Source: Actinomyces massiliensis 4401292
Lineage (GTDB): Bacteria; Actinomycetota; Actinomycetes; Actinomycetales; Actinomycetaceae
Direction of reading: 5' to 3'
NCBI RefSeq assembly: GCF_000269805.1
Contig: NZ_JH711481.1
Coordinates: 144,194 to 208,193, forward strand
DNA: 64,000 nucleotides
The notes below the pieces were generated by a model. The model did no database searches. It had not been told where the DNA came from and was given only the letters and a program-made list of their open reading frames with translations. Below are positions 2,295-60,900 of this stretch, one piece after another. How positions within the stretch are numbered: position 1 is the first letter of the stretch; each line of letters opens with the position of its first letter. The translations under genes and the position numbers were made by a program.

Positions 2295-2377
2295 ACGATT
2301 GACTCCAAGAGGGTCAGGCCCCGCCCGCTGGCATCCCTATTCTCTCCCCCACTCGACGAGAGTCGGCGCGGAGTACA

Positions 2378-2465
2378 ACCGATCTCGACGCGGAACCGGA
2401 CCGATCTCGGTGCGGAGTACGACCGATCTCGACGCGGAGTGCGACCGATCTCGACGCGGAGCCCA
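2378..2465 (+). repeat. 22-bp tandem array 1 (4 units, forward)
   Basis: Four consecutive 22-bp units start with ACCGATCTCG at 2378, 2400, 2422 and 2444, with a degenerate unit before them (2351-2377). Bases 11-12 and the last six bases vary, while GCGG at 13-16 is fixed. The array is 41 bp beyond the stop of the minus-strand MFS gene and 83 bp beyond the DUF2218 stop. Forward is defined here as the strand reading ACCGATCTCG. Confidence 0.93.
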
Positions 2466-8788: not shown

Positions 8789-8820
8789 CCCCCTCACTCA
8801 CTCTCACTCTCCCTCTCACC

Positions 8821-8895
8821 GAGATCGGTCGTACTCCGCACCGAGATCGGTCCGCTTCCGCGTCGAGATCGGTCGTACTCCGCGCCGAGATCGGT
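8821..8895 (-). repeat. 22-bp tandem array 2 (3.4 units, reverse)
   Basis: Three full units and a partial one in reverse orientation (strand reading CTCCGC..GAGATCGGT), beginning 32 bp after the phoU stop. Units lie at 8830, 8852 and 8874. The array reads in the phoU sense in the same way that arrays read downstream of minus-strand genes elsewhere. Confidence 0.92.
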
Positions 8896-8925
8896 CACGC
8901 CCCACCCCAAAACCAGCAATAAGCG

Positions 8926-16457: not shown

Positions 16458-16633
16458 GCCGAGATCGGTCGTACTCCGCATCGAAATCGGTCCGGTTCCG
16501 CATCGAAATCGGTCGTACTCCGGCTCGAGATCGGTCGTACTCCGCCGCGAAATCGGTCCACTTCCGCACCGAGATCGGTCGCATTCCGCCGCGAGATCGG
16601 TCCACTTCCGCACCGACATCGGCCGTGTTCCGG
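16458..16633 (-). repeat. 22-bp tandem array 3 (about 8 units, reverse)
   Basis: The longest array: units ending GAGATCGGT, GAAATCGGT or GACATCGGC recur every 22 bp from 16470 to 16623, with partial units at both ends. It lies upstream of tmk. Variation concentrates at the same two blocks as in the other arrays. Confidence 0.93.
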
Positions 16634-16662
16634 TTTGGGGTTGTGGGTGTGGTTGTCTGCGG

Positions 16663-16879
16663 TGTTGCACATGGGAGGGTGGGGGTTTTGTGGGGGTGGG
16701 GGGTTGGTTTTTGTTGCGATAGTGGGCTTTTCTGGTGATCATGGTGTGTGGTGGTCGGGTTCCCATGTGCGTTGAGGGGGTCCGTGCACATGGGAGCGGG
16801 ATCATGGTCGTTGCTGATGTTGCTGTTCCGCATGATTTCGCGATTTCTGCTGACACGGAGCACGCGCAAATGTGCAACA
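16663..16879 (+). repeat. Core repeat, copy A, with 10-bp terminal inverted repeats
   Basis: Bounded by TGTTGCACAT (16663-16672) and ATGTGCAACA (16870-16879), a perfect inverted pair. Inside is a second inverted pair, TTCCCATGTGC (about 16760) and GTGCACATGGGAGC (about 16784). Much of it, including CGGGTTCCCATGTGCG and GTGCACATGGGAGCGG, is conserved in copy B. The left half is strongly G/T-biased. It may be a structured RNA or a MITE-like element; no convincing coding region. Confidence 0.75.
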
Positions 16880-16984
16880 TCCACCACCCCAGCACACGCA
16901 GCACCCGCAGAGCCACCCCGAAGCAGTGAAACCCGACTCGTACGATCACCAGCTCCAAGACATCACACCCCACACCGGACTTCG

Positions 16985-17072
16985 ACCGATCTCGATGCGG
17001 AAGTGGACCGATCTCGACGCAGACTTCAACCGATCTCGATGCGGATTACGACCGATCTCGACGCGGAGCAGC
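16985..17072 (+). repeat. 22-bp tandem array 4 (4 units, forward)
   Basis: Units start at 16985, 17007, 17029 and 17051. The last unit overlaps the 3' end of the TetR gene: it encodes the final residues PRRDRS, and the variant hexamer ATTACG supplies the TAA stop (17046-17048). Confidence 0.93.
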
Positions 17073-17657
17073 GCCCGTTGCGGCCAGGCTGCGGGCAGCC
17101 GCGACCACAGCGGCGCGACGCCTGCGATGCTCGTCCTCAGTGGGCGGCCCGCACAGCATCCGGGTCACCTGAGGCACCGTCGACCACCATCCGGCAATCG
17201 ACAGCACGAGCAGAATCAGGTGCGCGGCATCAATATCGTCCGTGATGGTGCCGGCCTCCTGCCCCTTGACGACGGCAGCGGACTTGTAGCCGTAGTACTC
17301 GCGGCGCTGGTCCTCATCGGGCACCTCGCCATCGAATACCAGCGCCTCCCACCGCAACAGGCGGATCAGCTCGGGCCGCTCGCGGTGGTAGTCGTAGATC
17401 CGTCCGGCGTAGTCCCCGATGTCCTCGGTGGCGAACGAGGTCACCGGCACCGACTGGGCGACCTGCGCCAGCTCGTCGCGCAGCACTGCCGCGAAGAGCT
17501 TCTGCTTGCCGCCGAAGTAGTTGTACACCCGCTCCTTGTTGACTCCGGCCTTCTTCGCGATCCGCTCGATCGTCGTGCCATCGGGACCGCACTCGGCGAA
17601 CTCCGCCGTCGCGGCCTCCTTGATCCTGCGCCTGGTCCCCTCCGTGTCCCACGCCAT
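17046..17657 (-). CDS. TetR-family repressor
   Basis: DNA-binding regulator of 203 residues. The N-terminal helix-turn-helix (about 8-55) includes RRRIKEAATAEFAECGPDGTTIERIAKKAGV followed by the recognition helix and YNYFGGKQKLF; the rest is the ligand/dimerisation domain. It diverges from an MFS exporter gene across 100 bp holding two palindromes with a shared CAACG core, so it probably represses both genes and is released by an exporter substrate. The C-terminal residues and stop codon come from a 22-bp repeat unit, implying the repeat reached or replaced the original 3' end. Confidence 0.9.
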   Translation of the reverse strand: MAWDTEGTRRRIKEAATAEFAECGPDGTTIERIAKKAGVNKERVYNYFGGKQKLFAAVLRDELAQVAQSVPVTSFATEDIGDYAGRIYDYHRERPELIRLLRWEALVFDGEVPDEDQRREYYGYKSAAVVKGQEAGTITDDIDAAHLILLVLSIAGWWSTVPQVTRMLCGPPTEDEHRRRRAAVVAAARSLAATGAAPRRDRS

Positions 17658-17680
17658 GACCTGAGCCGCACCTCCTCCAT

Positions 17681-17693
17681 CTCCAACGTTGAG
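17681..17693. promoter_or_regulatory. Candidate TetR operator, proximal to tetR
   Basis: CTCCAACGTTGAG with palindromic centre CAACGTTG, 24 bp from the tetR start. It shares the TCCAACG half-site with the larger palindrome at 17728-17747. Confidence 0.5.
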
Positions 17694-17727
17694 GTTGCCC
17701 CTCGAGGCAGAACAGTACTACGGTAAT

Positions 17728-17747
17728 TTCCAACGTAAGCGTTGGAA
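17728..17747. promoter_or_regulatory. TetR operator over the MFS ribosome binding site
   Basis: TTCCAACGTAAGCGTTGGAA: 8-bp perfect arms around a 4-base centre, 10 bp before the MFS start codon. The right arm overlaps the Shine-Dalgarno sequence AAGGAAG, so binding here would block transcription near its start. Confidence 0.75.
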
Positions 17748-17757
17748 GGAAGAGCGC

Positions 17758-18990
17758 ATGGGCCAGAACCTCCCCCAACCAGAGACACCCACCTCTGAGG
17801 TGCACCCCTCACGCCCCTCAACCGAACCGAACTTCCCCGCCGGCAGGAGCGTCATCGTCATCCTGGTGGTGACGGCCCTGTTCGTTCTCACGCAGCTCTA
17901 CGCCGCGATCCCGCTATCGACTCCGGTGTCCTCCGCCCTGGGAGGCGATGCGACGTTCGCCCTCTCGACGAGTTTCAGCCTCACCTATGCCGCAGGCTTT
18001 CTCATCTGGGGCCCGGTCTCAGACCGATACGGCCGAAAGCGGGTCATGGCGATCGCCGTCGGCGTGCTCGCCGTCACCACCCTCCTGTGCGCGCTGGCAT
18101 CCTCCCCGTCCGCCATGACACTGCTGCGCGCCCTGCAAGGCCTGTCCGCCTCCGGATTCGCCCCCGTGGCACTGGCCTATCTCGCAGAAGCGGTCGCACC
18201 CGCCAGACGAGCCGGGGCGATCGGAGCGATGTCGACCTCGTTCCTGGTCGCCGGCATCTTCGGCCAGGTGCTCGCCTCCGCGATCGCGCTGCGCGCCGGC
18301 TGGCCGTGGTTCTTCGTACTCTGCGGCATTGTCCTCGCGATCGCATTCGCATTGATCCTCGCGGCGGCGACCGAGGCGCCCCGGCATGCACCATCACCCT
18401 CGCTCCTCGCGCAGTTCGCCAACCTCGCCCGCCTGCTGACCATGCCGGTGATCGTGCTGCTCAGCATCGCCCACATCTCGCTCCTACTGTCCTTCGTCGC
18501 CCTCTACACCGGCATCGGACAGCACCTGCAGAGCCTCGACATGCCCGCCTCCGCCACCGTCCTGATCCGACTGGCGGCATTGCCCGCGATGTTCATCAGT
18601 CTGAGCGTCGGCGCTCTGGCCCAGCGACTGGCCATGGCCCGGGTGGCCCAGCTCGGCTTCACCCTGGCCGCCGTCGGGATGCTCGGGGAGGTCGCACTGT
18701 CCGGAACCATCCCCGGTCTCATCGCCGCGAGCATCGTCTACGTCGCCGGGGTGGCGCTGGCCGTGCCGTCCATGATCAACCTCTACGGCGAGGCGGCCGC
18801 GCCGAACCGGGGAAGCGGAATGGCGATCAACGGCTTCGTCCTGTTCATCGGGGCCGGCATCGGTTCCGTCGTCGGCACGACGTTCGCGAGCCTGAGCACC
18901 CTCGCCATCGTCCTGGTCGCGCTTCTCGCCGTCGCCGCCGCATCCGTGGGAGCCGTCTCGGCGCTCACCCGGAGGGCCGCCCATGATTGA
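17758..18990 (+). CDS. MFS efflux transporter
   Basis: Membrane exporter of 410 residues with about 12 transmembrane segments. The MFS signature between helices 2 and 3 reads GPVSDRYGRKRVM, and helix 5 has AGIFGQVLASAIA, resembling the drug:H+ antiporter motif region. The N-terminal 28 residues are polar. AAGGAAG precedes the ATG at 17758. Its control by the divergent TetR protein suggests an inducible efflux pump; the substrate is unknown. It overlaps the next gene by 8 bp (ATGATTGA). Confidence 0.88.
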   Translation: MGQNLPQPETPTSEVHPSRPSTEPNFPAGRSVIVILVVTALFVLTQLYAAIPLSTPVSSALGGDATFALSTSFSLTYAAGFLIWGPVSDRYGRKRVMAIAVGVLAVTTLLCALASSPSAMTLLRALQGLSASGFAPVALAYLAEAVAPARRAGAIGAMSTSFLVAGIFGQVLASAIALRAGWPWFFVLCGIVLAIAFALILAAATEAPRHAPSPSLLAQFANLARLLTMPVIVLLSIAHISLLLSFVALYTGIGQHLQSLDMPASATVLIRLAALPAMFISLSVGALAQRLAMARVAQLGFTLAAVGMLGEVALSGTIPGLIAASIVYVAGVALAVPSMINLYGEAAAPNRGSGMAINGFVLFIGAGIGSVVGTTFASLSTLAIVLVALLAVAAASVGAVSALTRRAAHD

Positions 18991-19657
18991 CGTCCTGCTT
19001 CTGGGCGCGACCGGACGAACCGGCACCGCCCTGCTGCGCCATCGCCCTCGGAACGCGCGCCTGCACCTGGGAGTGCGAATCCGCGGCGGCACACGGCCGT
19101 CGTCAGTACCCGACGGCGACGACGTGCGCGCCATCGACCTGACCGATCCCGTTCTTATGCGAGCGGCGCTCTCGGGCATCGACGTCGTCGTCAACGCGAT
19201 CCGTCTGCCCGGCGAGATCCCGGCGACGGCGCTGATCGACCTCCACGAGCGGATCGCCACCGCGCGCGATGAGCGGCGCGAGGAGCGCGAAGGCCCCCTG
19301 ATCATCCACGTCGGCGGGGCCGGGTCGCTCCACCTGGGCGACGGCCGGCGCTTCTGGCAGGACCCGGCCTTCCCCGCCGTGACACTGCCGCGCGGCGTGG
19401 CCCACGCCGCGCTTCGCGACCACCTGGAGTCCGGAACGACTTCGAGCAACTGGGCGTACCTCATTCCACCGCCCGGCTACGTCCCCGAGGGCCGATTCAC
19501 AGGCGCCTACCGCAGGCTTGCACCGTCCGACGACGAACGAGCACTCCTGCGATCCACGATCAGCTACGAGGACTTCTCCCTCGCCCTTGCCGACGCGATC
19601 CACGAGCACTGGAGCGGAACTCATCTGATCTCAGCCGGCTGCACGTCCATGCCCTGA
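18983..19657 (+). CDS. NAD(P)-binding Rossmann oxidoreductase (NmrA/SDR-like)
   Basis: Soluble protein of 224 residues with the dinucleotide-binding motif LLLGATGRTGTALL near the N-terminus and the atypical-SDR sequence order (IDLTDPVLMRAALSGIDVVVNAI, then HVGGAGSL). No YxxxK catalytic pair is evident, consistent with NmrA/YwnB-type members. It is translationally coupled to the exporter, so it may modify or sense the same compound. Its 3' end faces a 22-bp array and a convergent lipoprotein gene. Confidence 0.8.
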   Translation: MIDVLLLGATGRTGTALLRHRPRNARLHLGVRIRGGTRPSSVPDGDDVRAIDLTDPVLMRAALSGIDVVVNAIRLPGEIPATALIDLHERIATARDERREEREGPLIIHVGGAGSLHLGDGRRFWQDPAFPAVTLPRGVAHAALRDHLESGTTSSNWAYLIPPPGYVPEGRFTGAYRRLAPSDDERALLRSTISYEDFSLALADAIHEHWSGTHLISAGCTSMP

Positions 19658-19674
19658 CGATGCGTCGCAGTTGG

Positions 19675-19731
19675 ACCGATCTCGACGCGGAGTGCGACCG
19701 ATCTCGGGGCGGAAGTGGACCGATCTCGACG
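19675..19731 (+). repeat. 22-bp tandem array 5 (2.6 units, forward)
   Basis: Units start at 19675, 19697 and 19719; a degenerate piece precedes them. It fills the 85-bp gap between the convergent oxidoreductase and DUF3060 lipoprotein genes. Confidence 0.9.
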
Positions 19732-28349: not shown

Positions 28350-28475
28350 CTCCGCCGAGATCGGTCGTACTCCGCGCCGAGATCGGTCGTACTCCGCATC
28401 GAAATCGGTCGCAACCCGTGCCGAGATCGGTCCACTTCCGCATCGAGATCGGTCCACTTCCGCATCGAGTTCGGT
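28350..28475 (-). repeat. 22-bp tandem array 6 (5.7 units, reverse)
   Basis: Units end at 28365, 28387, 28409, 28431, 28453 and 28475. It lies 141 bp upstream of DUF3060 lipoprotein B. With the forward array at 29324 it encloses about 850 bp of lower-GC DNA. Confidence 0.92.
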
Positions 28476-28817
28476 CACTAACACCAGCTGCAAAAACTTT
28501 GAACGGTACCCAAGCAATAGAGACGCACATCGGAAATAGCAGCCCTAACAACAGCTCAACTATTCCGCTCAGTCATGGCGGCGGCCCGCCCGAAGCCGTT
28601 CAGACCCGGTTCCGACGACGACTCACCTCCCCGCCGAGGATCGGCCCCGTCGAGCCCAGCACCCTCATCATCGACGCCGCGATTCGCATGGATGCCTTCC
28701 TCCAAAACCGAAGCCGGTCGTCCCCTCATTGATGAGATGCTTGATGTCGAGGCCGTGGATGAACTAGCAGGCCCAGTAGATCTCGGCGTCAACGATAATT
28801 CCTTGCACGCACGTACA

Positions 28818-29153: not shown

Positions 29154-29323
29154 CCAGTACGAGTCCTGCTACCCGCGAGCGTCCTCACTCGTAGCCCGGG
29201 CAGACGCAGGCGGCAGAATGCGCAGCCTCGCCATCTCCGCCATCTCATCAACCGCCCTCATCAAGGCGAGCACCCGAGTACTCCAAGCAATTGCGGCAAT
29301 GTGAATGAGCGCGCAAGGGCCGA

Positions 29324-29406
29324 ACCGATCTCGACGCGGAACTGAACCGATCTCGACGCGGGTTGCGACCGATCTCGACGCGGGTTGCGACCGATCTCGG
29401 CGAGGG
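29324..29406 (+). repeat. 22-bp tandem array 7 (3.8 units, forward)
   Basis: Units start at 29324, 29346, 29368 and 29390; two adjacent units are identical, suggesting recent unit duplication. It ends 42 bp beyond the topA stop codon. Confidence 0.92.
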
Positions 29407-38720: not shown

Positions 38721-38845
38721 ACTCCGCCTCTATACATTCTTCCCCGCCGTATCCGCAATTCAGTGACATCAGTGGCTCGACGGCTCAGCGACGGGGGGCC
38801 TCGCCGAGCCGGACACCGGCGGGACCGCACCCGCAGCCGGAGCGG

Positions 38846-38927
38846 ACCGATCTCGAGGCGGAGTACGACCGATCTCGAGCCGGATGTGGACCGATCTCGA
38901 GGCGGAGTGCGACCGATTTCGATGAGG
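38846..38927 (+). repeat. 22-bp tandem array 8 (3.7 units, forward)
   Basis: Units start at 38846, 38868, 38890 and 38912. Here position 11-12 is mostly AG (CTCGAGGCGG or CTCGAGCCGG). It ends 9 bp before the PAP2 gene's stop codon on the opposite strand. Confidence 0.92.
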
Positions 38928-46203: not shown

Positions 46204-46338
46204 TCCGTCGAGATCGGTCGAGTTCCGCGTCGAAATCGGTCGCTCCCCACCGCGAGATCGGTCATAACCCGTGCCGAGATCGGTCGTACTCCGCGTCGAA
46301 ATCGGTCCGCTTCCAGCTCGAGATCGGTCACAACCCGG
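46204..46338 (-). repeat. 22-bp tandem array 9 (about 6 units, reverse)
   Basis: Unit ends at 46218, 46240, 46262, 46284, 46306 and 46328, with a further partial. Units are more diverged than in arrays 1 and 7. It lies 68 bp upstream of the PH-domain gene start. Confidence 0.9.
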
Positions 46339-46497
46339 TGCGTGGTGCGATGTCTCGGGGTTGGGGGACGGATAAGTCGAGCCGTACCGCCGTGAGCCGA
46401 CTCTACTGATGCTCGCATGGGCCGGGGGCGATCATCACCGCAATTACTCAGCATGAAAACCCTTGTCCTGATGCCCGCGTGTACGGGGGGGGTGGCC

Positions 46498-46709
46498 GTT
46501 GCACACTCACGCGCGCCCCGTATCGGTAGAAACCGCGGAATCATGAGGAAAATTAATTCTGGCAGTGGCCACGGTTCCGCTCCCATGTGCACAGACCCCC
46601 TCACCGCACATGGGAACCCGACCGCCACACACGACGATCACCAGAAAGCCCGTCATTTCAACAAAAACAGCGCACACTACACAAAGGCCCGAGGCTCCCA
46701 TGTGCAACA
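46498..46709 (-). repeat. Core repeat, copy B (inverted)
   Basis: Reverse-complement homologue of 16663-16879. Conserved blocks include the terminal ATGTGCAACA (46700-46709), GCTCCCATGTGCAC, GCACATGGGAACCCG, and the flanking GACAACCACACCC outside the terminal repeat. The other terminus (GTTGCACAC at 46499) has diverged. A frame reading MCTDPL-AHGNPT is shared with copy A, but nucleotide conservation alone explains that. Confidence 0.75.
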
Positions 46710-46767
46710 CCGAAGACAACCACACCCATCAGGCACTCCCCACCTCACACAACCAAACCACCATAAA

Positions 46768-46867
46768 CTCGAGGCGGAAGTGAACCGATTTCGGTACGGA
46801 GTACGACCGATCTCGACGCGGACTATGACCGATCTCGAGGCGGAACCGGACCGATCTCGACGCAGCC
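46768..46867 (+). repeat. 22-bp tandem array 10 (4.5 units, forward)
   Basis: A partial unit, then units at 46784, 46806, 46828 and 46850. It ends 41 bp beyond the tadBC stop codon, which lies on the opposite strand. Confidence 0.92.
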
Positions 46868-46908: not shown

Positions 46909-48138
46909 TCACCCTCCCAAGAGGTCCAGACCGACGCTCATCACCACGGGCGCGATCCCGAGTACGATGAAGGCCGGCAGGTGGCATAGGCCCAGCGGGA
47001 GCACGAGCCGCACCGCCAACCGCTCGGCCGCCTCCTCGTCGGCGGCCCGTCTACCGGCGCGCAATGAGGCCGCTGTGCCCGTCAGAAGCGGCGCCGGTGA
47101 GGCCCCGTCCTCCCAGCCGGGCCGCAGGCAGCCCTCAAGACGCCTCCGCCGCTGCCGCCACTCCTCGTTGTCGGGAGCTTTCCAGGCCTCGTCCCAATCC
47201 GCGCCCAGCAGCAGCGCCCGGCCTGCGACCACCAGTTCTTCCTCTTCCAGCGCTTCCCCGAGGGCCTGCAGTGCTCCGGGCAGGGATGCTCCGCAGGCCA
47301 GTGCGGCAGCGGCCAGGTCCAGCACGAGCGCCTCGTCGACTCGGCTCGTCGGCACCGTCGCGGACGCGACCATCCGCGCCGTCACCTGGCGCCCCACAAT
47401 CATGAGCCCGACGCCGAGGACTCCCAGTGCGCTTCCCATCCCGCCGTCAAGCAGCACCTCCTCGGGGCGGGCGCCCACGGCCGCGCCCAGCAGCAGGCCG
47501 ACCAGCGGCAGCATGGCCAGCAGCCTGGCGGTGGACTGCGGCCCCGACAGCGCGGTGCGGCGCGAAGCCTCGGCATGACCGGACTCGGCGACCCCGCCGG
47601 CGACCGCCTCCAGGATCTCGGCCAGGGGGGCGCCGAGCGCAGCGGTGAGCCTGCACGCCGCCACTGCCCCGGGCACCGCCGCCGCGGCCGCCCGACGCCG
47701 CTCCCGGGCGGCGCGAAGACCCGGTCCGGGAAACGGCGGTCTCCACACCCAGCGGCCGCGGACTCGCACCGGCCACCACCGTTCAGGGGCGGCCTCGCCC
47801 AAGTCGAGCAGGGCGGGCGGAACGCCGTCGTCGCCAGGCTCGACGCCCTCAGACACGCCCGTGCGCGCCAGAGAGCGGGACCAGGCGCGCCGCGGGGTCG
47901 CCCCGGCGCGCAGCAGCGTGGCGACCTCGGTCAGCATCAGGCCAACATCAGTGCCACCGACGCTGCCGACGCCGCCAACATCGCACTGAGACCTCACCGA
48001 GCCGCCGTCGGCACCCTTTCCGGTCGCAGCATCCAGGCGGACATCCAGACCGGCCGGGCGTTCGCGTCTGGCTGGGAGCGTGACAACGGCGGCCGCCAGC
48101 GCCACCAGTATCCCGACAACGATCACAGTGGAGTCCAT
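46909..48138 (-). CDS. Fused TadB-TadC type II secretion F-domain protein
   Basis: Inner-membrane platform protein of Tad/Flp pilus systems, 409 residues. The N-terminal half resembles actinobacterial TadB (VATLLRAGATPRRAWSRSLA, then a hydrophobic pair around MLPLVGLLLGAAVG). The C-terminal half resembles TadC (VDEALVLDLAAAALACGASLPGALQAL, ending VLPLGLCHLPAFIVLGIAPVVMSV). In most actinobacteria these are two genes; here they form one frame. It overlaps tadA by 16 bp. No Flp pilin, TadE or TadF gene follows; composite repeat element B begins instead. Confidence 0.82.
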   Translation of the reverse strand: MDSTVIVVGILVALAAAVVTLPARRERPAGLDVRLDAATGKGADGGSVRSQCDVGGVGSVGGTDVGLMLTEVATLLRAGATPRRAWSRSLARTGVSEGVEPGDDGVPPALLDLGEAAPERWWPVRVRGRWVWRPPFPGPGLRAARERRRAAAAAVPGAVAACRLTAALGAPLAEILEAVAGGVAESGHAEASRRTALSGPQSTARLLAMLPLVGLLLGAAVGARPEEVLLDGGMGSALGVLGVGLMIVGRQVTARMVASATVPTSRVDEALVLDLAAAALACGASLPGALQALGEALEEEELVVAGRALLLGADWDEAWKAPDNEEWRQRRRRLEGCLRPGWEDGASPAPLLTGTAASLRAGRRAADEEAAERLAVRLVLPLGLCHLPAFIVLGIAPVVMSVGLDLLGG

Positions 48139-60781: not shown

Positions 60782-60900
60782 GCCGAGATCGGTCCGTCTC
60801 CGCATCGAGATCGGTCCGACGGACCGATCTCACTCAGCGGTGCTCAGCGGCACCCGACAGATCTCGACGCCGGAGCCGGACCTCGACGCCGGAACGCGCC
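60782..60900. repeat. 22-bp array 11, head-to-head junction
   Basis: Two reverse units (ending at 60793 and 60815) abut forward units (first at 60823, later ones diverged to about 60900). The junction GAGATCGGTCCG-A-CGGACCGATCTC is a perfect 12-bp inverted repeat with a one-base centre. It is the only place where opposite arrays touch. Confidence 0.85.

Follow-up and report, generated by a model that had tools for sequence, protein, structure and literature searches.

A 64,000-nt stretch of the Actinomyces massiliensis 4401292 genome, here called the window, carries two composite repeats, A and B, in which arrays of a 22-bp unit flank a core, and the question is what kind of element they represent. 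A preliminary description proposed a miniature mobile element with repeat arrays as its ends, a structured non-coding RNA locus, or a recombination cassette that inverts. The source genome (G000) is 3.37 Mb in 13 contigs, and was compared with A. israelii (G044) and a second relative (G042).

Copies A and B have the same plan, as first described: an inward 22-bp tandem array, a spacer, a core of ~215–217 bp, a second spacer, and an inverted array (Table 1). The arrays of both copies are all directed inward to the core. The 10-bp inverted core ends of the preliminary description are exact in A (TGTTGCACAT at 16663 and ATGTGCAACA at 16870); in B only ATGTGCAACA at 46700 is exact and the left 10-mer is degenerate (CGTTGCACAC at 46497). 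The inner inverted pair (in A, CCCATGTGC at 16762 and GCACATGGG at 16786; in B, at 46582/46606) and the opposite orientation of the two cores were confirmed. Extra copies of the inner motifs are found at the left end of core A (GCACATGGG at 16667) and the right end of core B (CCCATGTGC at 46697). Both composites fold better than 20/20 shuffles, with z scores of -7.5 for A and -11.2 for B.

Table 1. Array, spacer, and core features of the window
Feature	Position	Strand	Remarks
Solo array	2363..2461	-	4–5 units; A. israelii orthologous gap without units
Solo array	8817..8904	+	A. israelii orthologous gap also has units
Copy A left arm	16458..16632	+	22-bp tandem array, GATCGGTC orientation, 8 units (last degenerate)
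Copy A left spacer	16633..16662	.	Similar to those in most other composites
Copy A core	16663..16879	+	TGTTGCACATGGG ... ATGTGCAACA
Copy A central hairpin	16762..16794	.	CCCATGTGC-N15-GCACATGGG; core part recurring in 16/49 Actinomyces genomes
Copy A right spacer	16880..16975	.	Similar to those in most other composites
Copy A right arm	16976..17067	-	Inverted 22-bp array, 4 units
Solo array	19666..19731	-	Adjoins DUF3060 gene; array also at that gene in A. israelii
Core-less pair, left arm	28354..28476	+	
Core-less pair (28.3 kb), right arm	29315..29399	-	~0.84 kb other DNA between arms
Solo array	38835..38922	-	G042 gap none; A. israelii gap two units in opposite direction
Copy B left arm	46206..46337	+	22-bp array, 6 units
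Copy B spacer, left of core	46338..46496	.	
Copy B core	46497..46709	-	Orientation opposite to A; outer left end degenerate
Copy B spacer, right of core	46710..46774	.	
Copy B right arm	46775..46862	-	Inverted array, 4 units
Short array hairpin	60782..60850	.	z -2.45 vs shuffles; G042 orthologous gap without array units

The array unit was defined from 380 units in 93 distinct arrays. CGAGATCGGTC is nearly invariant, TCCG is conserved, and 3–5 bases are variable; the period is strictly 22 bp, the unit centre varies, and arrays contain 2–9 units. A two-unit pattern allowing ≤3 mismatches has 732 matches in G000 and none in a reversed control. Using a stricter pattern, matches were found in 12/49 Actinomyces genomes, with 713 in G000, 354 in A. 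israelii, 268 in G042, and ≤18 in each of the other nine. Array length changes fast, since two half-cores (L156:887-1226 and L158:876-1213) are 95% identical over 340 bp and have 2 vs 4 units in one arm. These half-cores resemble a deletion product between repeated 11-bp sites. The sequence TTGCACATGGGAG has 65 matches in G000 with one mismatch allowed, 58 on contig C1, 7 on C3, and none on other contigs.

Further copies of the composite were found, and relatives have sites lacking it; the preliminary description would have been refuted by the absence of both. Fetched stretches of G000, most of them picked because the search had located a core, contain 37 distinct cores. Inward arrays lie within 700 bp on both sides of 21 cores, on the left only of 2, on the right only of 5, and on neither side of 9. 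Arrays to the left are inward at 23 cores and outward at 2, and those to the right inward at 26 and outward at 5; these orientation counts are not independent events, as copies share descent. The outward arrays are two-unit arrays at near-constant distance from the core, within a longer form carrying an extra fragment whose translation we take to resemble the end of a LacI-type protein. A 288-kb sample of G000 not selected for cores contains 14, with inward arrays on both sides of 5, on the left of 1, on the right of 3, and on neither side of 5. Many arrays in G000 are without any core. Ten of the 12 inward neighbouring array pairs in the sample enclose no predicted gene, and 2/12 enclose genes. 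In A. israelii, two of the fetched core loci have inward arrays on both sides (L052/L101 and L062); the others have arrays on a single side or lack them, and outward-directed arrays are seen in a few cases.

The resemblance between composites extends to the spacers and seldom beyond the arrays. Compared by eye (21 left and 19 right), most spacers have sequence in common, and the left spacers of L032 and C1:87187 clearly differ. In several composites, the outer part of one spacer is repeated in inverted form in the other. Boundaries were aligned, as had been suggested, for 20 of the 21 composites, and 163/190 pairs gave an alignment spanning both cores. Homology continues >12 bp past the outermost array unit in only 4/163 alignments (22 to 86 bp; L026, L027, L028, L029, and L030). 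Alignment ends fall in or ≤12 bp from an array in 212/652 cases. The remaining two thirds terminate within the composite, and a precise boundary at the arrays is therefore not established for each copy. Judged from these alignments, the arrays appear to bound the shared DNA and are rarely passed, though many alignments fade earlier. Target-site duplications of ≥4 bp were found at 0/37 inward array pairs, some of which are inner arrays (1.9 expected by shuffling).

The relatives lack the core at the sites compared. It is absent at 3/3 interpretable composite sites (A, B, and L027) in both G042 and A. israelii. At L027 the relatives have a compact site, the flanking blocks being separated by 88 bp in G042 and by 127 bp in A. 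israelii. In G000 they are ~1 kb apart, and besides the composite the site holds a further ~270 bp that include decayed array units. The search for empty sites yielded these core-free loci and no clean empty site at A or B in either relative: at A the left array is present and neighbouring genes differ, and at B other DNA is present, in A. israelii with an apparent transporter gene. The two flanks of the L030 composite (~G000 C1:752571-753292) fall on different contigs in G042 and likewise in G044, possibly a rearrangement breakpoint or a draft-assembly effect. At the core-less pair at 28.3 kb, the G000 arms are 0.84 kb apart with open frames between them (28.5–29.3 kb); the A. israelii units are arranged >><< as a compact hairpin of 136 bp, and in G042 a single arm adjoins an unrelated hairpin. 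Gene order also differs near copy A. TetR, MFS, and NAD-binding genes (17046-19657) lie between tmk and the DUF3060 gene in G000; in G042 the matching DNA is ~45 kb away and tmk adjoins the DUF3060-side gene.

Other hairpin repeats were observed in these comparisons. G042 C5:120000-224999 (L142, L133, L137, L138, L134, and L143) contains a second family with a 19-bp unit, GGCATTTCTGCG, in which units converge on a short centre at five places, four of them near a 22-bp array, and two units are single. A loose form of this pattern has 16 matches in the 288-kb G000 sample. In a further species (G043), L119 has an inverted pair of ~19-bp units (GGGAACGTG...) beside tmk, in the same intergenic place. 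A third inverted hairpin kind, with ~20-bp units around CTTACTACGC, is found at L139 and L135 (G044 C20) near A. israelii array sites; its pattern has 6 matches in 62 kb.

The core has its own distribution. Its central hairpin was found in 16/49 Actinomyces genomes and 0/164 other genomes of the family, a longer-arm hairpin pattern in 16/213 genomes of the family, every one Actinomyces, and a strict scan of a named genome collection returned 13 stretches, all from A. israelii. Exact sites number 33 in G000 (control 0), 43 in G021, 22 in G044, and 12 in G022. Array and core are separable repeats, as arrays are present in G042 in the absence of an exact core hairpin, and cores are present in G021 and G022, where the array pattern finds no match. 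A first impression by eye that coding DNA surrounds the G021 cores was dropped, as frames near eight copies share no protein. Among the matches listed, G018 and G062 have two core hairpins with identical loops at similar contig positions, and others that are close; the matching hairpins suggest vertical persistence.

The features described so far are read, with moderate confidence and from sequence comparison, as a non-coding, non-autonomous foldback-type repeat element in which array arms enclose a palindromic core. Its ends are inverted 22-bp tandem arrays of variable length, and its interior comprises partly inverted spacer copies and a ~217-bp core of nested inverted repeats that also occurs solo in the genus. 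Copies would have arisen when the whole composite moved or was copied from a template, potentially by an enzyme acting in trans on array units. Arrays may grow and shrink through recombination or slippage, and other palindromes may come to sit between the arms. That the composite moves or copies as a unit is favoured by its boundaries, its spread, and the element-free sites. The miniature mobile element is accordingly the best supported of the three original proposals, given many copies, similar spacers, homology rarely passing the outer arrays, and composite-free sites in relatives; we infer movement itself. More tentatively, the copies may belong to a bacterial foldback family with expanding 22-bp-array inverted ends, moved in trans by a recombinase, nesting other palindromes and leaving rearrangements at its sites, with sister families of ~19–20-bp units in related species.

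Alternatively, the arrays could be selected gene-end elements (terminators, mRNA-end hairpins, or rho-dependent sites), with cores and other repeats merely accumulating alongside, which is unlikely. The 288-kb sample contains 47 arrays, and its genes were predicted with a simple in-house script. On the outer side of 31/47 arrays is the 3′ end of a same-strand gene, and 24 of these 31 begin 7–81 nt past the predicted stop, 3 overlap the gene end, and 4 lie at 138–641 nt. The other 16/47 have a gene 5′ end on the outer side, 7–2696 nt off. This 3′-end excess over the approximately half expected from intergenic lengths is modest and is what a gene-end role would give, as is an array beside tmk kept in three species (G000, G042, and A. 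israelii); arrays are missing from several other orthologous gaps. The 42 nt before 27 gene-end arrays are pyrimidine-rich at their end (9.7/14 nt vs 7.0 in 183 controls), again in line with a gene-end element, but the arrays are not preceded by an extra hairpin. A terminator just upstream of the arrays was rejected, as stability there is -11.0 kcal/mol (n = 27) vs -11.5 in the 183 controls. Folding of six single arrays is close to that of their shuffles (z -0.91 to 1.39), and a seventh sequence, the 60.8-kb hairpin, folds better (z -2.45). Across 29 pairs, the two arms of an element resemble each other no more than shuffled partners do (0.818 vs 0.828), so selection on whole-arm pairing is not visible; at variable bases only, likeness is 0.634 vs 0.674, with 993/1000 shuffles equalling or exceeding it. 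Conserved pairing between partner arms was not found in these pairs, the trend being slightly the reverse.

It is improbable, though conceivable, that the 22-bp units are binding sites of a chromosomal DNA-binding protein, forming an iteron-like platform spread by recombination. The strict period, the nearly invariant CGAGATCGGTC, and the variable centre of the 380 units are consistent with such a platform. So is the alternation of unit classes: adjacent units switch between two classes 167 times vs 138 ± 6 in within-array shuffles (0/2000), a pattern also expected from 44-bp duplications or from avoidance of perfect repeats. A platform does not predict inward pairs with element-like boundaries.

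The proposal of a structured non-coding RNA locus depends on the core and, although conserved folding agrees with it, is very unlikely. Sequences of 17 core copies are far diverged, with motifs kept at near-constant spacing and almost no indels. The arms CTCCCATGTGC/GCACATGGGAG appear up to four times per core with their orientation alternating; between the central arms, the stem is extended by bases that differ among copies with pairing kept. Two core subtypes were recognized. Type 2 is a single imperfect hairpin over its full length (nine copies, -83 kcal/mol, 71 pairs), and type 1 keeps the outermost pairs and the central stem (twenty copies, 44 pairs). In the suggested covariance analysis, 14/71 type 2 pairs and 9/44 type 1 pairs show one or more double changes that preserve pairing, as for an RNA gene, but the covariation terms are small (+0.3 kcal/mol for the nine type 2 cores and -2.1 kcal/mol for the twenty type 1 cores). 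Rfam searches of six loci gave no useful match, the sole hit at E ≤ 1 being an irrelevant vertebrate-type lncRNA far below cutoff, and left the proposal unsupported. Type 2 is moreover near-palindromic, and 43 sites in one genome (G021) are unlike an RNA gene. The core fold is genuine, but it could function in DNA just as in RNA.

Movement as REP/REPIN elements by a RAYT (Y1 tyrosine) transposase is highly improbable. Extragenic inverted doublets forming hairpins resemble REPINs as described (PMC3116915), but the Pfam family Y1_Tnp, to which the genome-wide transposase search was confined, matched 0/49 Actinomyces genomes and was positive in 5/14 control genomes with the same search. Pfam recognized no transposase among ten predicted proteins encoded close to A, B, and other arrays. 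Nine of the ten matched other families (TetR, MFS, NAD-binding, two DUF3060, thymidylate kinase, bacterial PH, topoisomerase, and DNA polymerase III delta′), and the predicted protein at 46909-48138 had no Pfam match. The inverting cassette has no support, as opposite core orientation was seen only between different loci, in one strain of the species.

Small palindromic repeats shape bacterial intergenic DNA, and their movers are mostly unidentified. To our knowledge, two separable repeats combined with array ends are unusual for bacteria, and among the titles and abstracts listed by a literature search, with subscription journals mostly outside its scope, none describes these Actinomyces repeats. 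MITEs, ERIC, and Correia elements are small non-coding intergenic bacterial repeats with inverted ends and many copies. The Actinomyces element is likewise small, intergenic, non-coding, and high in copy number with inverted ends; it differs in that its ends are variable-length tandem arrays, a second palindrome is nested inside, and no duplications were found. Tn7-like ends contain several 22-bp TnsB sites per end in inverted orientation. The Actinomyces ends also have several 22-bp repeats each, inverted, but their arrays are strictly head-to-tail and no duplications were seen. BIMEs are grouped with REP/REPIN elements. REPINs are described as extragenic inverted repeats forming hairpins (PMC3116915 and PMC3733652), as the Actinomyces repeats are; the Actinomyces arms differ in being tandem 22-bp units, not doublets, and the sample of 49 genomes of the genus has no Y1 match.

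The closest resemblance is to eukaryotic foldback transposons (FB, Galileo, and Tetris), which have long terminal inverted repeats containing tandem repeats, a variable non-coding middle, rearranged forms, and an autonomous partner that is often unidentified (PMC4079207). Tetris makes a target-site duplication of 8–10 bp (PMC4079207). Set against that account, the Actinomyces element has long terminal inverted repeats (inward arrays on both sides of 21/37 cores, with A and B self-folding), variable-number tandem repeats within them (2–9 units in 93 arrays), and a variable middle mostly without predicted genes (10/12 pairs). It differs in its bacterial host, its 22-bp unit only, the lack of a duplication in 37 pairs, and the lack of an assigned transposase superfamily. 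As the duplication was looked for and not found, the element is described as built like a foldback transposon and not classed as a member. Its ends, spacers, and centre are distinguishable and its copies extend from short hairpins up to nested composites, which makes array growth, nesting, and loss traceable between species. Should the 22-bp units prove to be acted on by an enzyme, the Actinomyces element would be a bacterial counterpart of the foldback elements of eukaryotes.
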